A model generated the notes under the pieces. That model did no database searches and had not been told where the DNA came from. It saw nothing but the letters and a program-made list of their open reading frames with translations. This document shows, in pieces, positions 2,989 to 42,839 of a stretch of 64,000 bases of DNA. How positions within the stretch are numbered: position 1 is the stretch's first letter; every line of letters starts with the position of its first letter. Origin of the DNA: Pseudomonadota bacterium (lineage in GTDB: Bacteria; Pseudomonadota; Gammaproteobacteria; Burkholderiales; Casimicrobiaceae); assembly GCA_018241785.1 (NCBI GenBank), contig JAFEDF010000236.1:1-64000 (forward strand), in the 5' to 3' direction. The translations under genes and the position numbers were made by a program.

Positions 2989-3855
2989 TCAATGTGGATG
3001 CGGCCATTGCCCACCGAGCCTTCGCGTGATCTCCTCGGCGGTGTGCGACACGAGCGGCCCGAGCTGCCGGATGCGTTCGTCCGAGAGACGTGAGAGTGGA
3101 CCGGCGACCGAGATCGCGCCGAGCGGCTCGGCATGCTCGTCGTAGAACGGAGCGGCGACGCAGCGCGTTCCCGGAAGGTGCTCCTCGTCGTCGAACGACC
3201 ATCCACGCTGGCGGATCACGCGGATGCTCGCCCACATCGTCTCGGGCGAGGTGATCGTGTTCTCGGTGATCCGCGGCAGCCCGCGGATCTTCAGCATCGC
3301 GTCGATCCGGTCGTCGGGGAGCGACGCGAAGATCGCCTTGCCGACGCCCGAGGCGTGCAGCGGCACGCGACTGCCGAGCTTGACGATCGTGCGCATCGTC
3401 TCGCGGCATTGCACCTGGTCGATGAATACCGCCTCGGTGCCGTCGAGGATGGCGAGGTTGGTGGTCTCGCCCGCCTGCTCCATCAGCCGCCGCATGAACG
3501 CATGGCTCTGGGCGACGAAATCGCGGTTGGCGAGAAAGCTCGAGCCGACGGTGAAGGCTTCGATGCCGACGTACCAGAGCCCGAGGTCGCCGGCCTGGAA
3601 CACGTAGCCCGTCTTCTCGAGCGTCGACAGCAGGCGGTGGGTCGTCGACGGAGGAAGCTGCACCCGGTGCGCGATGTCGGTCAACGTGAGCCCGCCTTCG
3701 GTGCGCGCGAGGCACTGCAGGATGGCGAGGCCGCGGGTGAGGCTTTGCACCTGCGCGGTTGCGGCACCCGGGTGCGCCGGCGTGCGGCCGCGCCTGGCTG
3801 CGGTGGGTCGGACGAGGGGGGTCACGGACGGCGTCGTGAGGAAAGGCGTGATCAA
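2989..3855 (-). CDS. IclR-family transcriptional regulator
   Basis: Helix-turn-helix regulator with an IclR effector-binding domain. The N-terminal winged helix reads [14 protein letters not shown] then [22 protein letters not shown]. The C-terminal effector domain contains the typical [14 protein letters not shown] stretch and a late GAISVAGP strand. The start is uncertain: there is no ATG in a suitable place. I chose TTG at 3855, preceded by GGGTG; GTG at 3825 would give a protein ten residues shorter, and the frame stays open upstream to 4020. It lies directly upstream of the acyl-CoA ligase and is a likely controller of it, perhaps responding to a related acid. That role is inferred from position only. 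Confidence 0.85.
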
Positions 3856-3986
3856 ACCACACCCATCGCGCGGCGCCAAGAGCGGGCCAGGAGCCGGCCA
3901 GGAGCGCGCAAGAGGGATCGGCGGCCGCAGCGCTCTGCTATCGTTCGGCGAAGGCCGGTCGCACCGGCTGCCACTCGATCGCGCCG

Positions 3987-5525
3987 ATGAACGCACCGCC
4001 CGAAGAACACTCGCCTGCACCGCCGCGTCGCCTGCGGGTCATCGCCTGCCGCGACACGCTGGCCGTTCCCGGTTCCGGTTCCGACGCGACCGAACCCGTT
4101 GTGCGCACGCTGCGCGAAGTCGGCGCGCATGCGATCGGAGATCCTGCCGGCCGGCGCCTGGAGGTCGTAATGCCGCCTGCGGATGGAGACGGCCTTGGCG
4201 ACCTCGCTGGGGCGGCGGAGGCCGCCGACGCGATCGCGGTCGTCGTCGATGCGAGCAGGGGGCTCGATGCCGACGTGCTCCGGTGCCTCTCGGTTGCCGG
4301 CCTTCTCGGCGCGTCCCGGACGGCGCTCGTCGTGTGCGGCCTCGAAGCGGCCGGCGATCCGCGCGAGCGGTTCGACGCCATCGTCGCCGGGACCCGGGCA
4401 TTCGCCGCAGCGATCGGCGCTCAGGCCGCCGAGTGCATTGCGGCAGCAGCGCGCAGGAGTGACATCGCCGAAGCGAGGAGCGGCACCCTTGAGTGGTACA
4501 CCGGTCCGACCCTTCTCGAGTGGCTCGATCGCGCAGGCGCGCCGGATCGACAGGATGCTCGCGCATCCGATCGCGGCAGGCCGGCGGAAGTGGCCGACCA
4601 GTTCGAAGTCGCGGTCGCCTGGGTCGCGAAGGATCCGCTGCTGCCGGGGCGGCGCTACCGCATCCGCATCGGTCCCGAGACGGTCGGCGCGACGTTCGCC
4701 CATCTCAAGTACGCCGTCGATCCCGGAACGCTCGACCATCTCGCCGCGCGCACGCTGGGCGAGGGGACGATCGGCGTCGGTACGCTGCTGTTCGACACGC
4801 CGATTGCGTTCGAAGCGAGCGGCCGCGCAGACGGCGACGTCAAGGGTGAGGCCGGCGCAACCTTCATCGTCGTCGATCGCGCCGGGACCGCGACGCTCGG
4901 CGTGGGGCGCATCCGCTTTGCGCTGCGCCGCTCGCACAACCTCGCATGGCAGGCGACCGACGTCGATCGCGCGGCGCGCGTCGCGCTGCACGGTCACCGG
5001 CCCTGTGTCGTCTGGTTCACCGGGCTCTCCGGCGCCGGGAAATCGACGATCGCCAACCTGGTCGAGAAGGCGCTGCATGCCCGCGGCTGCCATACCTATC
5101 TTCTCGACGGCGACAACGTCCGGCACGGCCTCAACCGCGATCTCGGCTTCACCGACGCCGACCGCGTCGAGAACGTCCGCCGCGTCGCCGAGGTCGCGCG
5201 ATTGATGGCGGACGCCGGCCTCGTCGTGCTGGTGTCGTTCATCTCGCCGTTTCGCGCCGAGCGGCGCATGGCGCGTGCGCTGGTCGATGCCGGGGAATTC
5301 TGCGAAGTGTTCGTCGACGTGCCGCTCGAGGTTGCCGAGGCGCGTGACGTCAAGGGTCTCTACGCGAAGGCGCGGCGCGGCGACCTGCCGCATTTCACCG
5401 GAATCGACTCACCCTACGAGCCGCCCGAGCGTCCCGACGTGCGCATCGACAGTGCGGCGGTCGACCCCGGGCACGCGGCGCAGCAGGTCGTTGCGTGGCT
5501 GCGCGATGCGGGCGTGTTCGGCTGA
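3987..5525 (+). CDS. cysC: APS kinase (CysC) fused to a degenerate CysN-like N-terminal region
   Basis: 512 residues. The C-terminal third is a complete adenylylsulfate kinase: P-loop GLSGAGKST at about 346, [24 protein letters not shown] and KGLYAKAR. It would make PAPS from APS. The N-terminal ~200 residues align by pattern with the CysN GTPase domain ([12 protein letters not shown] near its end), followed by the CysN third-domain pattern ([14 protein letters not shown]). The GTP-binding motifs are gone: there is no GxxxxGKS/T at the N-terminus, the DTPGH position reads MPPADGD, and the NKxD position reads CGLE. The second CysN beta-barrel also appears to be missing. So it looks like a CysN-CysC bifunctional enzyme whose GTPase half has decayed or been reused. 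No cysD is adjacent. The upstream region is shared with the divergent IclR gene. Confidence 0.88.
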
Positions 5526-35839: not shown

Positions 35840-37048
35840 TCAGCGCGCCGCCGGGCGCAGCCGCCGCACGACGTCGTCGGGCGGCAGGAAGTCCTTGCCG
35901 TCGGCGTAATGGAAATCGACCATCACACCCTTGCCGTCGCGGACCGCGAGGCGCCCGACGAACGCGCCCATCGTCGACTGATGATCGATCGCGCGGAAGG
36001 TCACCTCGCCAAACGGCGTCGCGACGCGAAGGTTCGCCATCGCCGCGACGAGCTTCGCCGTGTCGGTCGAATGCGCGCGTGCGATCGCGGCTGCGGCGGC
36101 CTTCACCGTGCTGTAGCCGACGACCGAGCCGAGGCGCGGGTAGTCGTCGAACTTCGCCCGGTAGGCGGCGAGGAACGCGCGGTGCTCGGGCGTGTCGATC
36201 GCGTACCACGGATAGCCGGTCACGTACCAGCCGACCGGAGCTTCATCCTTGAGCGGATCGAGGTACTCCGGCTCGCCGCCGAGAAGGTCGAACACCGGGC
36301 GGCCCTTGAAGAGGCCGCGCAACTCACCCTCACGCACGAAGCGGGCGAGGTCGGGGCCGAACAGCGACGAGAAGATCGCGTCCGGGTGATCGTCGATCAG
36401 CGCCTGCACGACCGCGCCAGGATCGATCTTCCCGAGTGGAACCGGCTGTTCGATGAACTCGAGTCCCGAACCCCCCTGCGCGATCATCTGCTGCTTGAAG
36501 GTCTCGGTGGCCGCCTGGCCGTACTCGTAGTTCGGATAGACGATCGCCCAGCGCTTCTTGCCGGTCTTCACGGCGTCCGGGACGAGCATTGCCGTCTGCA
36601 TGTAGGTCGACGCGCGCAGCCGCCACGTGTACTCGTTGCCGTCCTGCCAGACGAGCTTGTCGGTGAGCGGCTCGGCGGCGATGAACAGCACCTTGCGCTG
36701 GCGCGCGAAGTCGGACACCGCGAGACCGATGTTCGACGCGAACGTGCCCATCAGCAGCGCGACGTGCTCGCGCGCCGTGAGTTCCTCGGCTGCGCGCACG
36801 GCGTCGCCGGGAACGCCGTTGTCGTCGCGCGAAATCACCTCGAGCGGGCGCCCGAGCACGCCGCCTTTCGCGTTGATCTCGTCGACGGCGAGCTGCATCC
36901 CCTTCTGGTAGGGCGCGAGGAACGCCGGAAACTGCTTGTACTCGTTGATCTCGCCTAAGCGGATCGGCTGCGCCAGGGCGGCGTGCGGCCCAAGGGAGCC
37001 CGCGGCGGCGAGCGCGGCCGCGGCGGCGAAGAGGACGGATCGGAGCAT
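35840..37048 (-). CDS. branched-chain-type ABC transporter substrate-binding protein
   Basis: 402-residue periplasmic protein of the Leu/Ile/Val-binding (type I) fold. Residues 1-27 are a signal peptide (MLRSVLFAAAAALAAAGS..., cleavage near AALAQP). The mature protein begins IRLGEINEYKQFPAFLAPY, then VDEINAKGGVLGRPLEVISRDD, typical of amide/urea/short-acid binders. The ATG at 37048 follows CTGGAGA. First gene of the leftward operon. The ligand may be a carboxylic acid or amide consumed by the downstream acyl-CoA genes; that link is positional. Confidence 0.9.
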   Translation of the reverse strand: MLRSVLFAAAAALAAAGSLGPHAALAQPIRLGEINEYKQFPAFLAPYQKGMQLAVDEINAKGGVLGRPLEVISRDDNGVPGDAVRAAEELTAREHVALLMGTFASNIGLAVSDFARQRKVLFIAAEPLTDKLVWQDGNEYTWRLRASTYMQTAMLVPDAVKTGKKRWAIVYPNYEYGQAATETFKQQMIAQGGSGLEFIEQPVPLGKIDPGAVVQALIDDHPDAIFSSLFGPDLARFVREGELRGLFKGRPVFDLLGGEPEYLDPLKDEAPVGWYVTGYPWYAIDTPEHRAFLAAYRAKFDDYPRLGSVVGYSTVKAAAAAIARAHSTDTAKLVAAMANLRVATPFGEVTFRAIDHQSTMGAFVGRLAVRDGKGVMVDFHYADGKDFLPPDDVVRRLRPAAR

Positions 37049-37229
37049 GCGATCTCCAGCAGGACAGATAGGCGGGTGCGCCGCCCGATCCGGCACCGGC
37101 GCGGTGCGGCGGGCCGCCGTGCGCGCGATGGTAGCAAATCTGTGTGCGACAGCCCGTAACGACAGCGCGCCGCGACCGCGCACCGCGCGGGCGCGCACTC
37201 GATCGACGCGCGTCGGCCTGCCGTCCGGT

Positions 37230-37245
37230 TGGCACGCCGGTTGCT
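37230..37245 (+). promoter_or_regulatory. sigma-54 (RpoN) promoter, near-perfect match
   Basis: TGGCACGCCGGTTGCT matches the -24/-12 consensus TGGCACG-N4-TTGCW at every fixed position. The invariant GG and GC are correctly spaced. The start point would fall near 37256, one base before an ATG. No enhancer-binding protein gene is in the window. Confidence 0.7.
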
Positions 37246-37256
37246 CGATTGGCTGC

Positions 37257-37436
37257 ATGACAACCGACGCGATGCCTGGCAGGAATGCAGACGCGCAGCC
37301 CGCGCTGACGTCCAAGCCGATCGCCGGAAGCGTGGTCGTCGCAGAGGATCGTCGTGCCGCGACGACCGGCAGCGTCGAGCAGCTCGCCCGCGCATGGGCC
37401 GACTGCGACCTCGCCGGCGAGATGCTGGAGAGCTAG
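37257..37436 (+). CDS. small 59-residue protein behind the sigma-54 promoter, function unknown
   Basis: Reads MTTDAMPGRNADAQPALTS, then KPIAGSVVVAEDRRAATTG and a C-terminal half VEQLARAWADCDLAGEMLES. Third codon positions are strongly G/C, as in the genes around it, and the C-terminal half looks like an amphipathic helix. There is no signal peptide, membrane segment or metal motif, and a single cysteine. No ribosome binding site is visible, and the predicted sigma-54 start point lies just before the ATG, so translation may be leaderless or begin at ATG 37272. I do not recognise a family. It precedes the histidine kinase gene by 169 bp and may share its transcript. Confidence 0.45.
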   Translation: MTTDAMPGRNADAQPALTSKPIAGSVVVAEDRRAATTGSVEQLARAWADCDLAGEMLES

Positions 37437-37605
37437 CGACGGGCACATCCGGAACGCACGCTGCGCGCCGGCGCTGCCGACGCGGGATGGTTGCCGGCAT
37501 GCTGCCGGCGCGCGGCGATGCGACCCCTGCACGGGACGATTTCACCGAACGACCGATCCGCAGACACCCTGGTCCCCATTTCACCCGAACCGGCCCGCAT
37601 CATTC
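37437..37605. other. spacer with perfect 7-bp hairpin
   Basis: Between the small ORF and the histidine kinase. GCCGGCA (37493-37499) and TGCCGGC (37503-37509) form a perfect stem with a 3-base loop but no following T-run, so it may act as an attenuator or mRNA stabiliser rather than a full terminator. No other feature seen. Confidence 0.4.
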
Positions 37606-39045
37606 ATGGACACGCGAAACACCGCCTTCAACTGGATCGTCGATCTCTTCGAGCTCGGCTTGCGCACCGCCTCCGCCGCCCATCCGCAACGGGCGTTGCA
37701 GGACATCCTCGGGCACATCGTGCACGGCCTCGACGCGCAAAGCGGATCGATCGCGCTCGCCGTCGACGACAGCGGCGAGCAACTCGAGCTCGCGGCCGGA
37801 ACGGAGCTGCCCCCCGGCTGGGTGGGCACGCCGCTGCCACGGGGGATGGGCCTCTACGGGCACGTCGTCGCGACCGGACAGGCCCTGCTCGCCAACGGCG
37901 ACGCCGCCGAAACCGGCCTGCCCCCGCGCAATGCCGACGAAGCCGGCGCGTCGCCGCGCTCGGCCATGTGCTGGCCGCTCGCCGCGGGCGGGCGGATCAT
38001 CGGGGCGCTCGCCGTCACCCGGACCGCCGAGCGCCCGCGGTTCACCGTGCAGGATCTCGACCGCGGTCAGCCGCTGACGCGGCTGGTCGGGCTCGTCGTC
38101 GCGAATCACCGCATGCACGTCGCGCGCGAGAGCCGCATCGTCGAGCTGTCGACGCTGAACGCGACGATGAAGCGGCTAAACGAGCTCCTCGAGGACGCGC
38201 AGACGCAGGTCGTGCAATCGCATCACCTCGCGTCGATCGGCCAGCTCTCGGAGGGCGTCGCACACGAGATCAACCGGCCGCTCGACCTCGTGCAGTCGAA
38301 CCTCGCGTCCCTCGAAGCGTATCTCGCGCGGATCCTGTCGCTCGTCAACGCCTATGCGCAGATCGACGCCGCCGCCGAGGGACCGGGAGCGGCGGCTTTC
38401 GCCCGCGCCCGCCAGCTTCGCGACGGCGTCGACCTCGCGATCCTCGGTGACGACATCGACTGCCTGATGGACGAGTCGCGCGAAGGCCTGCTGCGCGTCA
38501 AGCGCATCGTGCAGGACCTGCGGCAGGTCTCGCCCGACGCACCCGACGACGTGTGGGAATCGATCGACCTGCATCGCGCGCTCGACCGTTCGCTCGATGC
38601 CGTTCGCGGCGACATCAAGTACAAGGCGACCGTCGTGCGCAAGTACGGAGTGGTGCCGGCGATCGACTGCCTGCCCGCGCGGCTTTCGCAGGTCTTCGTC
38701 AATCTCATCGCGAACGCCGGCCAGTCGATCGAGGGCCGCGGCACGATCACGATCACGACCGGCACGACCGGCGCCGACGCTTGGGTGAGGATCGACGACA
38801 CGGGCTGCGGCATCCGGCCGGGAAACCTCGCACGAATCTTCGAGCCGTTCTTCACGACTCGGCCGGCGGGGCAGGGCGCCGGGCTCGGGCTGTCGATCGC
38901 CAACTCGATCACGCGCAGGCACGGCGGGCGCATCGACGTCGAGAGCGACGTCGGACGCGGCAGCCGTTTCACCGTGTGGCTGCCGCTGCGCGCTGCCGAA
39001 CCCGCGGTTGCCGCGCCAGCACTCGCGACGGCGACCGTCGAATAG
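37606..39045 (+). CDS. GAF-domain sensor histidine kinase
   Basis: 479 residues with no membrane segment, so a cytoplasmic sensor. A GAF-like domain covers about 20-170 (LQDILGHIVHGLDAQSGSIAL, GLYGHVVATGQ, AMCWPLAAGGRIIGALAV). A short coiled coil leads to the dimerisation helix with His220 in GVAHEINRPLDLVQ. The ATPase domain has an N-box (LSQVFVNLIANAGQSI), G1 IDDTGCGI, F-box IFEPFFTT and G2 GLGLSIANSI. The residue after HEIN, nearly always Asn in this subgroup, is Arg224 here. No response-regulator gene is adjacent. It may be transcribed from the upstream sigma-54 promoter. Confidence 0.9.
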   Translation: MDTRNTAFNWIVDLFELGLRTASAAHPQRALQDILGHIVHGLDAQSGSIALAVDDSGEQLELAAGTELPPGWVGTPLPRGMGLYGHVVATGQALLANGDAAETGLPPRNADEAGASPRSAMCWPLAAGGRIIGALAVTRTAERPRFTVQDLDRGQPLTRLVGLVVANHRMHVARESRIVELSTLNATMKRLNELLEDAQTQVVQSHHLASIGQLSEGVAHEINRPLDLVQSNLASLEAYLARILSLVNAYAQIDAAAEGPGAAAFARARQLRDGVDLAILGDDIDCLMDESREGLLRVKRIVQDLRQVSPDAPDDVWESIDLHRALDRSLDAVRGDIKYKATVVRKYGVVPAIDCLPARLSQVFVNLIANAGQSIEGRGTITITTGTTGADAWVRIDDTGCGIRPGNLARIFEPFFTTRPAGQGAGLGLSIANSITRRHGGRIDVESDVGRGSRFTVWLPLRAAEPAVAAPALATATVE

Positions 39046-39214
39046 GCGCCCGCCCGCGATCGGCTGCCGCGCGCGGGTGTCCGCCGCGCATTCGGCCCGT
39101 GCGCCGCCGCCGGTTGCGACCGCGAGGTCCGCGGGTTTAGCATCCGGGGCAGTGCGCCGCCCCGCGTGGCTCGACCGCGGTCGCTGGCGCGTCTTCGACG
39201 ATCGCATCGCCTCC

Positions 39215-41572
39215 ATGCCTACGGTCATGCCTGCTCGATGGACGTTGCCCGCTGCAGCGCGGCGTCCAAAGGCTGCGGTTGCGGCCTTCGCAATCGCGCT
39301 CGCCTCGCTCGCGCCCGTCGCGCCCGTCGCGCCCGTCGCCATCGCGGACGACACCGGGGCGACGGTCGACCTCGGGACCGTCACCGTCACCGCACGGCGC
39401 CGCGACGAAACGATCATGAACGCGCCGGTCGCCGTCACCGTGCAGACGGGCGACCAGCTGCAGGACCAGAACGCGGTCCTCTTCGGCGACGTCGGGCGCG
39501 AGGTCCCGAACGTGCGGATGACGCAGTCGCCGACCTCGGTCTCGGCGCTCGACGTGACGATCCGCGGGCAGAGCGCGATCCGCTCGGCGATCGCCTACGA
39601 CCCGGCGGTGGGGATCTACGTCGACGGCGTCTACGTTGCCAACGGCCAGGCGGCGATGAACACGCTGCTCGACATCGACAAGGTCGAGATCATTCGCGGT
39701 GCGCAGGGCACGCTGTTCGGCCGCGACAACACCGGCGGCTCGATCCTGTTCACCACGCGGCGCCCCGAGATCGGCCGCTGGAGCTCGGAGGCCGCCGTCG
39801 ACGGCGGCAGCGACAGCCTGTTCATGGGGCGGGCGATTGCGAACGTCCCGCTCGGCGACACCGCGGCCTTGCGCGTCGCCTACCAGGACAACGAGCGCGA
39901 CGGCTACGGCTCGAGCCTCGCGAGCGGCCAGGACGATTTCGGCAACCAGCATCGCTACCAGGGCCGCGTCTCGGCGCTCTGGCGCCCGCGCGCGGGCACC
40001 GAGGCCTTCTGGAGCTACGAGCACTTCGAAGCCGACGAGGTCGGCGCTCTGCTGCACCCGCTGCACGGCCCGGGCGCCGGCACCATCGTCGCGCAGTTCG
40101 GCGACGCGATCCCGCTCTTTCCGGGCCTCCCTCCCGTCGTGTTCCCGTCGAGCTTCCACCAGACCGATGCGGACCTCGCCGCGCACGACCGCACGCATCT
40201 CGACGCGACGCAGCTCACGCTGACGCAGGACCTCGGATCGGCGACGCACGCGAAGCTGATCCTCGGCTACCGGCACCTCTACAACGACACCGCCATCGAC
40301 GTCGACGCGACGTCGCTCCCGTTCGCCAATACGCTGCTGCAGAACTCGTCCAGCCAGAAGAGCGCCGAGCTGCAGCTGAACGGCAGCATGCTCGACCGCA
40401 AGCTCGACTGGGTCGGCGGCCTCTACTGGTTCCGCGACGACGGCAGCGCGCCGTCGCAGATCCCGGCGCAGTCGCCTGCCTACCAGGCGTTCTTCGCGGC
40501 GACGGGCGGGCCGGTCGTGCCCTATCCGGTGATCGAGAGCAATTCGCTCGAGAACCTGTCCACGGCGGGCTACCTGCACGGCGAGTATCACCTGACCGAT
40601 CGCTGGTCGGTGGCGGCGGGTGTACGGCGTACGGAGGATACGAGGAAATTGAGCGAGAACTCGTACGCCGCGACCCCGCTCGGGCAGTCGTGCACGATCA
40701 TCGACGCAACGACGGGCGCCCCCGCGAACAACGGCGGACCGTGCCCGCCGATCGACAAGAGTGTCGGCTTCTCGTACTGGTCGTGGGAGTTCTCGTCGCG
40801 CTACCGGCTGACCCACGAGGCCAACGTGTACTTCCGCTCGGGCCGCGCCCAGCGCTCCGGCGGCTGGAACGTTCCCCTGAGCACGCTGCAGGACCAGCCG
40901 TTCCGGCCGGAGCAGTTGACCGACTACGAGCTCGGCATCAAGACCGACCTCCTCGGCGGCGCGCTCGCAATCAACGCCGACGTCTTCTACGGCGATTACG
41001 ACGACATGCAGCGGCTGCTGCCTCAGCTCGTCGGGGGTACGCCGACCACGTTCGTGATCAACGCCGGCAAGGCGCGCGTCAGCGGCGCCGAGCTCGAGGC
41101 CGACATGGACTTCGCGCAGGGCTGGTCGATGCGCGCGGCGCTCGGCTGGACCGACGCCCGCTACCGCCAGTTCGAGTACACCCCCGGACCGGGCCTGCCG
41201 CCGATCGACCTCGCGGGCAACGAATTCAACCAGACCCCGCGTCTCAATGCAGCGCTCGGCGTCGGCTACGCGAGATTGCTGCCGCACGGGTCGCTGCGCC
41301 TCCACGCCGACTACGCGTGGCAGGACACCGTGCAGTTCAACGTGATCAACGATTTCAACAAGCAGGGGGCCTACGGCACCCTCAATGCACGGGCGACCTA
41401 TGCGGCGCCGGGCGATGTCTGGGAGCTCGCGCTCTTCGGCACCAACCTGACCGATCGCCAATACGCGATCACCGGAGGCACGGTGGCGCCGAACGCGATG
41501 GCGTGGCAGATTCCCGGTCCGCCTCGCGAGTACGGGGTCGAGTTCACCTACCGGTTCGGCCGCGCGGGCTGA
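39215..41572 (+). CDS. TonB-dependent outer-membrane receptor
   Basis: 785 residues. An N-terminal signal segment includes three exact copies of the 9-bp unit coding APV (39311-39337). The plug domain begins LGTVTVTARRRDETIMNAPVAV and has the typical VEIIRGAQGTLFGRDNTGGSILFTT split over its end. The barrel closes with ...REYGVEFTYRFGRAG, a few residues past the usual terminal aromatic. Receptors with this plug pattern take up siderophores, cobalamin or large organic ligands; the ligand here is unknown. ATG 39215 is preferred; ATG 39227 is possible. Confidence 0.9.
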   Translation: MPTVMPARWTLPAAARRPKAAVAAFAIALASLAPVAPVAPVAIADDTGATVDLGTVTVTARRRDETIMNAPVAVTVQTGDQLQDQNAVLFGDVGREVPNVRMTQSPTSVSALDVTIRGQSAIRSAIAYDPAVGIYVDGVYVANGQAAMNTLLDIDKVEIIRGAQGTLFGRDNTGGSILFTTRRPEIGRWSSEAAVDGGSDSLFMGRAIANVPLGDTAALRVAYQDNERDGYGSSLASGQDDFGNQHRYQGRVSALWRPRAGTEAFWSYEHFEADEVGALLHPLHGPGAGTIVAQFGDAIPLFPGLPPVVFPSSFHQTDADLAAHDRTHLDATQLTLTQDLGSATHAKLILGYRHLYNDTAIDVDATSLPFANTLLQNSSSQKSAELQLNGSMLDRKLDWVGGLYWFRDDGSAPSQIPAQSPAYQAFFAATGGPVVPYPVIESNSLENLSTAGYLHGEYHLTDRWSVAAGVRRTEDTRKLSENSYAATPLGQSCTIIDATTGAPANNGGPCPPIDKSVGFSYWSWEFSSRYRLTHEANVYFRSGRAQRSGGWNVPLSTLQDQPFRPEQLTDYELGIKTDLLGGALAINADVFYGDYDDMQRLLPQLVGGTPTTFVINAGKARVSGAELEADMDFAQGWSMRAALGWTDARYRQFEYTPGPGLPPIDLAGNEFNQTPRLNAALGVGYARLLPHGSLRLHADYAWQDTVQFNVINDFNKQGAYGTLNARATYAAPGDVWELALFGTNLTDRQYAITGGTVAPNAMAWQIPGPPREYGVEFTYRFGRAG

Positions 41573-41582
41573 GCCCGCCGCC

Positions 41583-42839
41583 GTGGATCGCCGCAGCGAC
41601 CGCGGGTACGGCTGGCGGGCGGCGGGTTTCGTCCTCGGCTGCGCGATGCTGTCGGCGTCGGCCGCGACGCCGGCCGCGGCGGCGAGCGCCGCGCCACCCG
41701 ACCGCCCGACGTTCATCCCGATTCCCGAGATCGACACCGCGCCCGACAGCGGGGTGACGCTCGGGCTCATCCCGGTGGTGCTGTCGAACAACGATCGCGG
41801 CGAGATCGACCGCATCCTCGCCCCCGACGTCATCCACAGCCAGTATTTCGGCTGGGGCGCGAGCTGGCGCACCTTCCGTTACCCCTCGGCCGATCGCAGG
41901 TGGTCGTTCTACGCGAGCGCGAAGCAGCGCGTCGAGAGCGGCGTCGACGCCGAGTACGACGCCGGGCTGCTGCGCACGAGCGACTGGTCGTGGAGCGCGC
42001 ACGCCGTCTACGACCGCAGCGGCACCGGGCGTTTCTACGGGCTCGGCAACGACTCCCGCCTCGCCGGCGAGGCCACTTTCATCGATCGCCAGTTCGGCGC
42101 CGAGCTCACCGCCGCGCGCAACTTCACGCACGAGCTGCAGCTCGCGTGGACCGCGCACGCGGTCGACGCCGAGGTCGGCGGGCGGGCGCTCGATTTTCTG
42201 CCTGCGATCGACACCGTCTACCCGGCGCAGCCGGGAGTCGGCCGGGTGCGCGAGCTGCAGCAGCGCGTCGTGCTGACCTGGGACACGCGCGATTCCGACG
42301 TCGTGCCGCGCCGCGGCGAGCGGTGGGCCGCGTTCGCGGGCTTCGCGCCGGCAGGAATCGGCAGCGGCAACGGTTACTCGTTCGTCGGCGTCGACCTCAC
42401 CGGCCTGCGGCCGCTCGGTCCCGCGGCGACGCTCGTCGGGCACGCGGCCGTGCGCTACATGCCGTCCTATGCGAAGGCGCCGTTCTGGGACCTGTCGAGC
42501 CTCGGTGGCGACCGCAGCGTCACCGGCGGAGCGCAACCGCTGCGGGCGTATGGCGAAGGTCGCTTCGTCGACCGCAACAGCTTCGAGGCGAGCGTCGAGG
42601 CGCGCTTCGACGTCAGGAGCCTGCACCTCTTCGGTACCGAATTGACGCTCGAGCTTGCGCCGTTCGTCGACTCGGGCAAGGTCTTCACGGCGATGTCGGC
42701 CGATCCGCTCACCCACCTCCATACCGCGGGGGGAATCGGCTTTCGCCTCGTCGCGAGCCCGTTCGTCGTCGGCTACGTCGACGTCGGCTTCGGACGCGAG
42801 AAGGCGGCGGTGTTCAGCGGGATCGACTATCCGTTCTGA
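41583..42839 (+). CDS. BamA/TamA-type surface-antigen outer-membrane protein
   Basis: 418 residues from GTG 41583. A signal peptide (about 1-37, ending AAASA) precedes a predicted 16-strand barrel lacking POTRA domains. Strand-like patterns alternate throughout, and the C-terminus ends VFSGIDYPF with the terminal Phe used by the Bam machinery. It shares the surface-antigen pattern RAYGEGRFVDRNSFEASVEARF. It starts 10 bp after the TonB-receptor gene, so the two are probably co-transcribed and may work on the same ligand. Confidence 0.85.
   Translation: MDRRSDRGYGWRAAGFVLGCAMLSASAATPAAAASAAPPDRPTFIPIPEIDTAPDSGVTLGLIPVVLSNNDRGEIDRILAPDVIHSQYFGWGASWRTFRYPSADRRWSFYASAKQRVESGVDAEYDAGLLRTSDWSWSAHAVYDRSGTGRFYGLGNDSRLAGEATFIDRQFGAELTAARNFTHELQLAWTAHAVDAEVGGRALDFLPAIDTVYPAQPGVGRVRELQQRVVLTWDTRDSDVVPRRGERWAAFAGFAPAGIGSGNGYSFVGVDLTGLRPLGPAATLVGHAAVRYMPSYAKAPFWDLSSLGGDRSVTGGAQPLRAYGEGRFVDRNSFEASVEARFDVRSLHLFGTELTLELAPFVDSGKVFTAMSADPLTHLHTAGGIGFRLVASPFVVGYVDVGFGREKAAVFSGIDYPF

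Follow-up and report, generated by a model that had tools for sequence, protein, structure and literature searches.

RocA, an accessory protein of the CovR/S system of group A Streptococcus, is kinase-like in nature and works through another system, having no regulator of its own. In the tested histidine kinases of the HisKA type, such as CrdS and HK853, the T/N of the motif H-E/D-x-x-T/N is needed for phosphatase activity but not for kinase activity (PMC3510030). In Aquincola, the PEP-CTERM gene pepA has a sigma-54 (RpoN) −24/−12 promoter (PMC9850573). The locus described here lies in a 64,000-nt stretch of a Casimicrobiaceae genome (the window), and it can be compared with each of these systems. 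Its histidine kinase shares with CrdS and HK853 the H220-E221, N, G1, F and G2 motifs and the C-terminal ATPase domain, but it carries an Arg instead of Asn/Thr at the H+4 position and has no cognate response regulator (RR). By analogy alone, it may resemble RocA in acting through another system, and it differs from RocA in keeping its catalytic residues. The promoter site shares the TGGCAC −24 element with the pepA promoter; the site here would instead drive a two-component operon. The RR found in relatives belongs to the single-receiver response regulators with a receiver nearest to NCBIfam NF053512 (NosR family), a match that covers the receiver only and lies far below the cut-off. The window genome differs from such systems in that the RR gene appears to have been lost.

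Sixteen further genomes of the family contain close relatives of the window kinase; in 15 of these, the gene directly upstream of the kinase encodes a receiver protein of 180 aa, the RR. It carries Asp59 and an invariant G-I-T-x-V-x-W...GGV tail; the RR alignment covered 11 of the 15, which were 64–93% identical to the first. Most of the RR starts are preceded by purine-rich ribosome-binding sites. Upstream DNA was readable in 14 RR-bearing relatives (the contig of G078 was too short). Of these, 13 have a −24/−12 site with 0–1 mismatch at 58–119 nt ahead of the RR start, and the single exception, G077, had no good sigma-54 site upstream of the RR. In the shuffle control, the chance of such a site was ∼0.3% per 250 nt. 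Although the relatives are not independent of one another, the sequence on either side of the sigma-54 site has diverged among their promoter regions. In the sister genome (G011), the site is identical to that of the window.

The RR is missing only in the window genome and its sister, whose kinases are 80–81% identical. A profile search of both whole genomes found no cognate RR gene, either beside the kinase or elsewhere; the best match in each was a distant paralogue at about 1e-26. Eight further genomes of the genus carry the kinase, and in these the best match reached about 1e-98 or better. This absence was read from a 262-contig draft genome and an 87% complete sister, and the interval from promoter to kinase lies on a single contig in both. 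The locus is syntenic with that of the RR-bearing G005, with the same divergent gene upstream, which encodes the periplasmic binding protein of an ABC transporter (35840–37048, minus strand; Pfam), and with a gene downstream that we take to be MarC. Between the binding protein and the RR, G005 has two genes that are presumably an oxidoreductase and a fructose-bisphosphate aldolase, both missing in the window pair; all three names come from reading the sequences and not from a profile search. In the kinase tree, the window pair adjoins G005, G012 and G017. Since these neighbours all keep the RR, loss of the RR is the simpler direction of change.

The two borders of the missing gene can still be recognized. 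The promoter and leader aligned with those of the relatives at a local score of 52 (G017; 16 in shuffles), and the hairpin before the kinase at a score of 41 (21 in shuffles). The DNA of the 59-codon frame between them gave no convincing match to the RR genes. Judged by sequence comparison, the promoter and the intercistronic hairpin are the retained edges of the missing RR gene, with the frame between them. We consider it probable, as a whole, that the promoter was inherited, that the RR was lost, that the frame is the scar of this loss, and that the kinase was re-tuned. In this account, 37230–37245 would be the sigma-54 promoter of an ancestral RR–histidine kinase operon, which lost its RR gene, but not its promoter and RR–kinase hairpin, before the window species and its sister diverged. 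RpoN polymerase together with an activator would produce an mRNA from about 37256, with a leader of about 350 nt followed by the kinase, and transcription would perhaps continue into the TonB receptor and barrel genes. This start point, like all expression proposed here, is predicted from the DNA. The gap left by the RR would now read as the 59-codon frame, whose body is unconstrained sequence beginning in the former RR leader and whose last ∼20 codons are possibly the end of the old RR gene. The orphan kinase would remain under purifying selection with its autokinase residues kept and its HisKA phosphatase residue lost, and would presumably donate phosphate to, or modulate, another regulator.

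The hairpin (37452–37525, plus strand; −53.5 kcal/mol) lies between the small frame and the kinase, and in three RR-bearing relatives a homologous hairpin lies directly between the RR and the kinase. The predictions for the five compared genomes all contain it, and none of the counted pairs is broken. An alternative reading is that the conserved stretch 37365–37525 is a structured RNA element of the 5′ leader and regulates the expression of the kinase, the frame being incidental to it. Between the window and its sister, the frame tail and the non-coding hairpin (37370–37525) are 78–93% identical, as against 40–65% for the frame body, and the adjacent leader drifts. This conservation, a z value of −2.1 and the presence of a strong hairpin in the three RR-bearing relatives argue for such an element. 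Against it, no two-sided compensatory changes were found among the five genomes, which vary too little, no relevant Rfam match was obtained in either mode, and the leader as a whole folds no better than shuffles (z = −0.93). We regard leader control as unlikely, although it has the best claim among the alternatives, and it is compatible with the scar reading.

The 59-codon frame (37257–37436, plus strand, ATG to TAG) occupies the place of the lost RR gene. The earlier note had described it as a tiny RpoN-controlled protein with G/C-rich third positions like those of real genes. The ATG frame of 59 codons is indeed present and its GC content by codon position is 0.68/0.57/0.83, but it is the last ∼22 codons (0.77/0.50/0.95, as against 0.65/0.62/0.76 in the body) that carry most of the coding-like signal. 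When the leader was shuffled by dinucleotides, 36% of the shuffles contained an ATG frame of 59 codons or more, and the existence of the frame is therefore unremarkable. The proposal of a small protein fared poorly in the comparison with relatives. At this position 15 relatives have a full RR, and the frame, whose absence from relatives with the same kinase the note had named as evidence against it, is missing in 15 of the 16; the exception is the sister, which shares the RR loss and has a 56-codon frame as the single homologue. Beyond the window's own copy, no homologue was found among 399 sampled genomes of the order, a sample without the sister. The 59-aa protein had no match worth following in Pfam, NCBIfam and PDB, and nothing significant in PHROGs. 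No Shine-Dalgarno sequence was visible before the ATG at 37257 or that at 37272, and the coding tests were non-significant. From the two available sequences, omega was 0.51 (P 0.07) and the BLOSUM test gave P 0.075, a lean towards coding. We conclude that the frame is probably a deletion scar, a leftover sequence with no working peptide.

The competing reading is a genuine small protein, either retained or newly arisen once the RR was lost, with a conserved C-terminal helix (EQLARAWADCDLAGEMLES) that would bind the kinase or another partner; we hold it to be somewhat less likely again than leader control. In its favour, both species keep the frame open, its start and stop are conserved and the indel is of 9 nt (3n), the tail is conserved with coding-like codon composition, and omega leans the same way. 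The AlphaFold2 single-sequence model (mean pLDDT 72.7) shows a C-terminal helix, with a block pLDDT of up to 84, but pTM is only 0.37. The missing ribosome-binding site, a start codon at the predicted +1, and the restriction of homologues to the sister argue against a protein. Moreover, the changes between the two species by codon position (11/21/19) leave second positions as variable as third, and the non-coding stretch past the stop is as conserved as the tail.

The conserved last ∼22 codons of the frame (37370–37436, plus strand; VEQLARAWADCDLAGEMLES) are ∼90% identical to the sister and are a possible remnant of the RR C-terminus. When anchored at the stop codon, RVRWADDGGVLLQD was closer to the RR C-terminus RAWADCDLAGEMLES than nearly all other protein ends were (P ∼0.01), in a test that left out the RRs' own ends and whose settings were chosen after the resemblance was seen. 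An RR-tail profile gave no usable score against the small proteins. The derivation of the tail from the RR C-terminus is thus suggestive only. A further step along this line, that the tail of the deleted RR gave rise to a working 59-aa mini-protein which is expressed from the inherited sigma-54 promoter, replaces the RR on the orphan kinase and helped it to switch partners, is speculative and in our estimate distinctly improbable.

The alignment of the kinases shows changes in the enzyme of the pair that lacks the RR. The kinase (37606–39045, plus strand) contains GAF and HATPase_c domains (Pfam), while the Pfam HisKA model falls below its cut-off. It keeps H220, E221 and the ATP-site motifs. 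At H+4, Asn224 has become Arg (HEINNP to HEINRP; codon 38275–38277); HEINR is present in the window and sister kinases and HEINN is invariant in the 15 others, and the bifunctional motif H-E/D-x-x-T/N is thus absent from the window pair. After the second DHp helix, RDFSRGG has become RQVSPDA at a position that is conserved in the RR-bearing kinases. As the Asn224 to Arg change falls on the phosphatase residue, loss of phosphatase activity is predicted, and the kinase probably cannot dephosphorylate a regulator. We infer that it can still autophosphorylate and that it has another partner.

The stem branch of the window pair in the kinase tree is long (0.40). The window kinase is 57.6% identical to that of G008, compared with 72.9% for the G005 kinase. 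For the neighbouring binding protein, the identities to G008 are nearly equal (75.9% for the window, 75.3% for G005), which indicates that the acceleration of the kinase is not genome-wide. Between the window and its sister, the kinase has a dN of 0.11 and a dS of 0.60, with identities of 0.90/0.90/0.65 by codon position, as expected under purifying selection. The nearest remaining RR-like receiver in the genome (L159; G000:C187, about 3570–5091) matched the RR profile at 1.9e-26 and adjoins another kinase, 33% identical. It is a candidate surrogate partner of the orphan kinase.

Pfam bore out the order of genes given in the earlier note, in which the histidine kinase is followed by a TonB-dependent receptor (about 39215–41572, plus strand) and an Omp85-superfamily outer-membrane barrel (41583–42839, plus strand; also NCBIfam). 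Among the loci compared, this pair follows the kinase only in the window genome and its sister; in the relatives, the kinase is followed by the presumed MarC or by unrelated genes. The promoter type, the kinase type and RR loss are each of known kinds, and what is new is their combination, in which a retained promoter and a regulator scar occur with a kinase that lacks its phosphatase residue; a narrow literature search brought up no description of this locus. The locus can be regarded as a natural experiment in which the cognate RR has been lost and the promoter and downstream hairpin retained, while the kinase evolves faster than its neighbour gene and lacks the residue needed for phosphatase activity. 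As 15 relatives keep the RR–kinase pair, the fate of a histidine kinase after partner loss becomes directly testable. The locus also illustrates that a perfect promoter may be followed by a small frame that is a scar and not a gene.

The promoter itself was the best-founded part of the earlier note, which had reported a match at all fixed RpoN bases. The site TGGCACGCCGGTTGCT (37230–37245, plus strand) fits TGGCACNNNNNTTGCW with no mismatches, and both the GG at −24 and the GC at −12 within TGGCAC-N5-TTGCW are present. It is the sole match in the window at up to one mismatch, where 0.93 would be expected by chance at that looseness. Across the 3.49-Mb genome, the pattern has six exact matches, as against two for the reversed control pattern. 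The exact match taken alone is suggestive, and it rises far above chance because the site is conserved in relatives. The genome encodes rpoN (PF04552, 1.6e-65) and six strong PF00158 proteins, the sigma-54 activators; together with the conserved position of the site in relatives that carry the kinase, this upholds the assignment to RpoN. With the −12 GC at 37243–37244, the start point is expected at about 37256, which places the ATG at 37257 at or beside +1, as had been claimed. A scan of 36900–39300 found no sigma-70 promoters or terminators. The segment is almost certainly a real promoter, to judge from its sequence, its conservation and the presence of rpoN. That it is a chance consensus match, unused as a promoter, is very improbable, for although the two control matches show that exact matches can arise by chance, its position ahead of this operon is conserved across three genera and the sister's identical site lies inside a conserved block.

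Upstream of the promoter, the block 37110–37170 is ∼90% identical to the sister and contains the imperfect dyad CTGTGTGCGACAG (37140–37152, plus strand), a candidate activator (enhancer) site located ∼78–90 nt upstream of the −24 box. The block may be a sigma-54 activator site or else the promoter of the divergent transporter operon. Of the 15 upstream regions, 6 contained TGTG-N4-ACAG, a count at the limit of what shuffles gave, and no common enhancer motif clearly exceeded shuffles in these regions. The genome has five other perfect sigma-54 sites, none of which has such a dyad upstream; the role of the dyad as an activator site is only suggestive. Directly upstream of the −24 box lies a palindromic block, CGATCGACGCGCGTCGG (37200–37216, plus strand), and the promoter alignment of five genomes contained a similar CGACG..CGTCGG in three RR-bearing relatives.

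One other perfect sigma-54 site lies 55 nt before a gene that reads as a PEP-CTERM protein. The perfect sites L001, L004, L005 and L006 precede genes that we take, from reading their sequences only, to encode a PEP-CTERM protein, an HD-GYP-like regulator, a PilT-like ATPase and a sugar transferase, pointing to a putative extracellular-matrix/pilus regulon.
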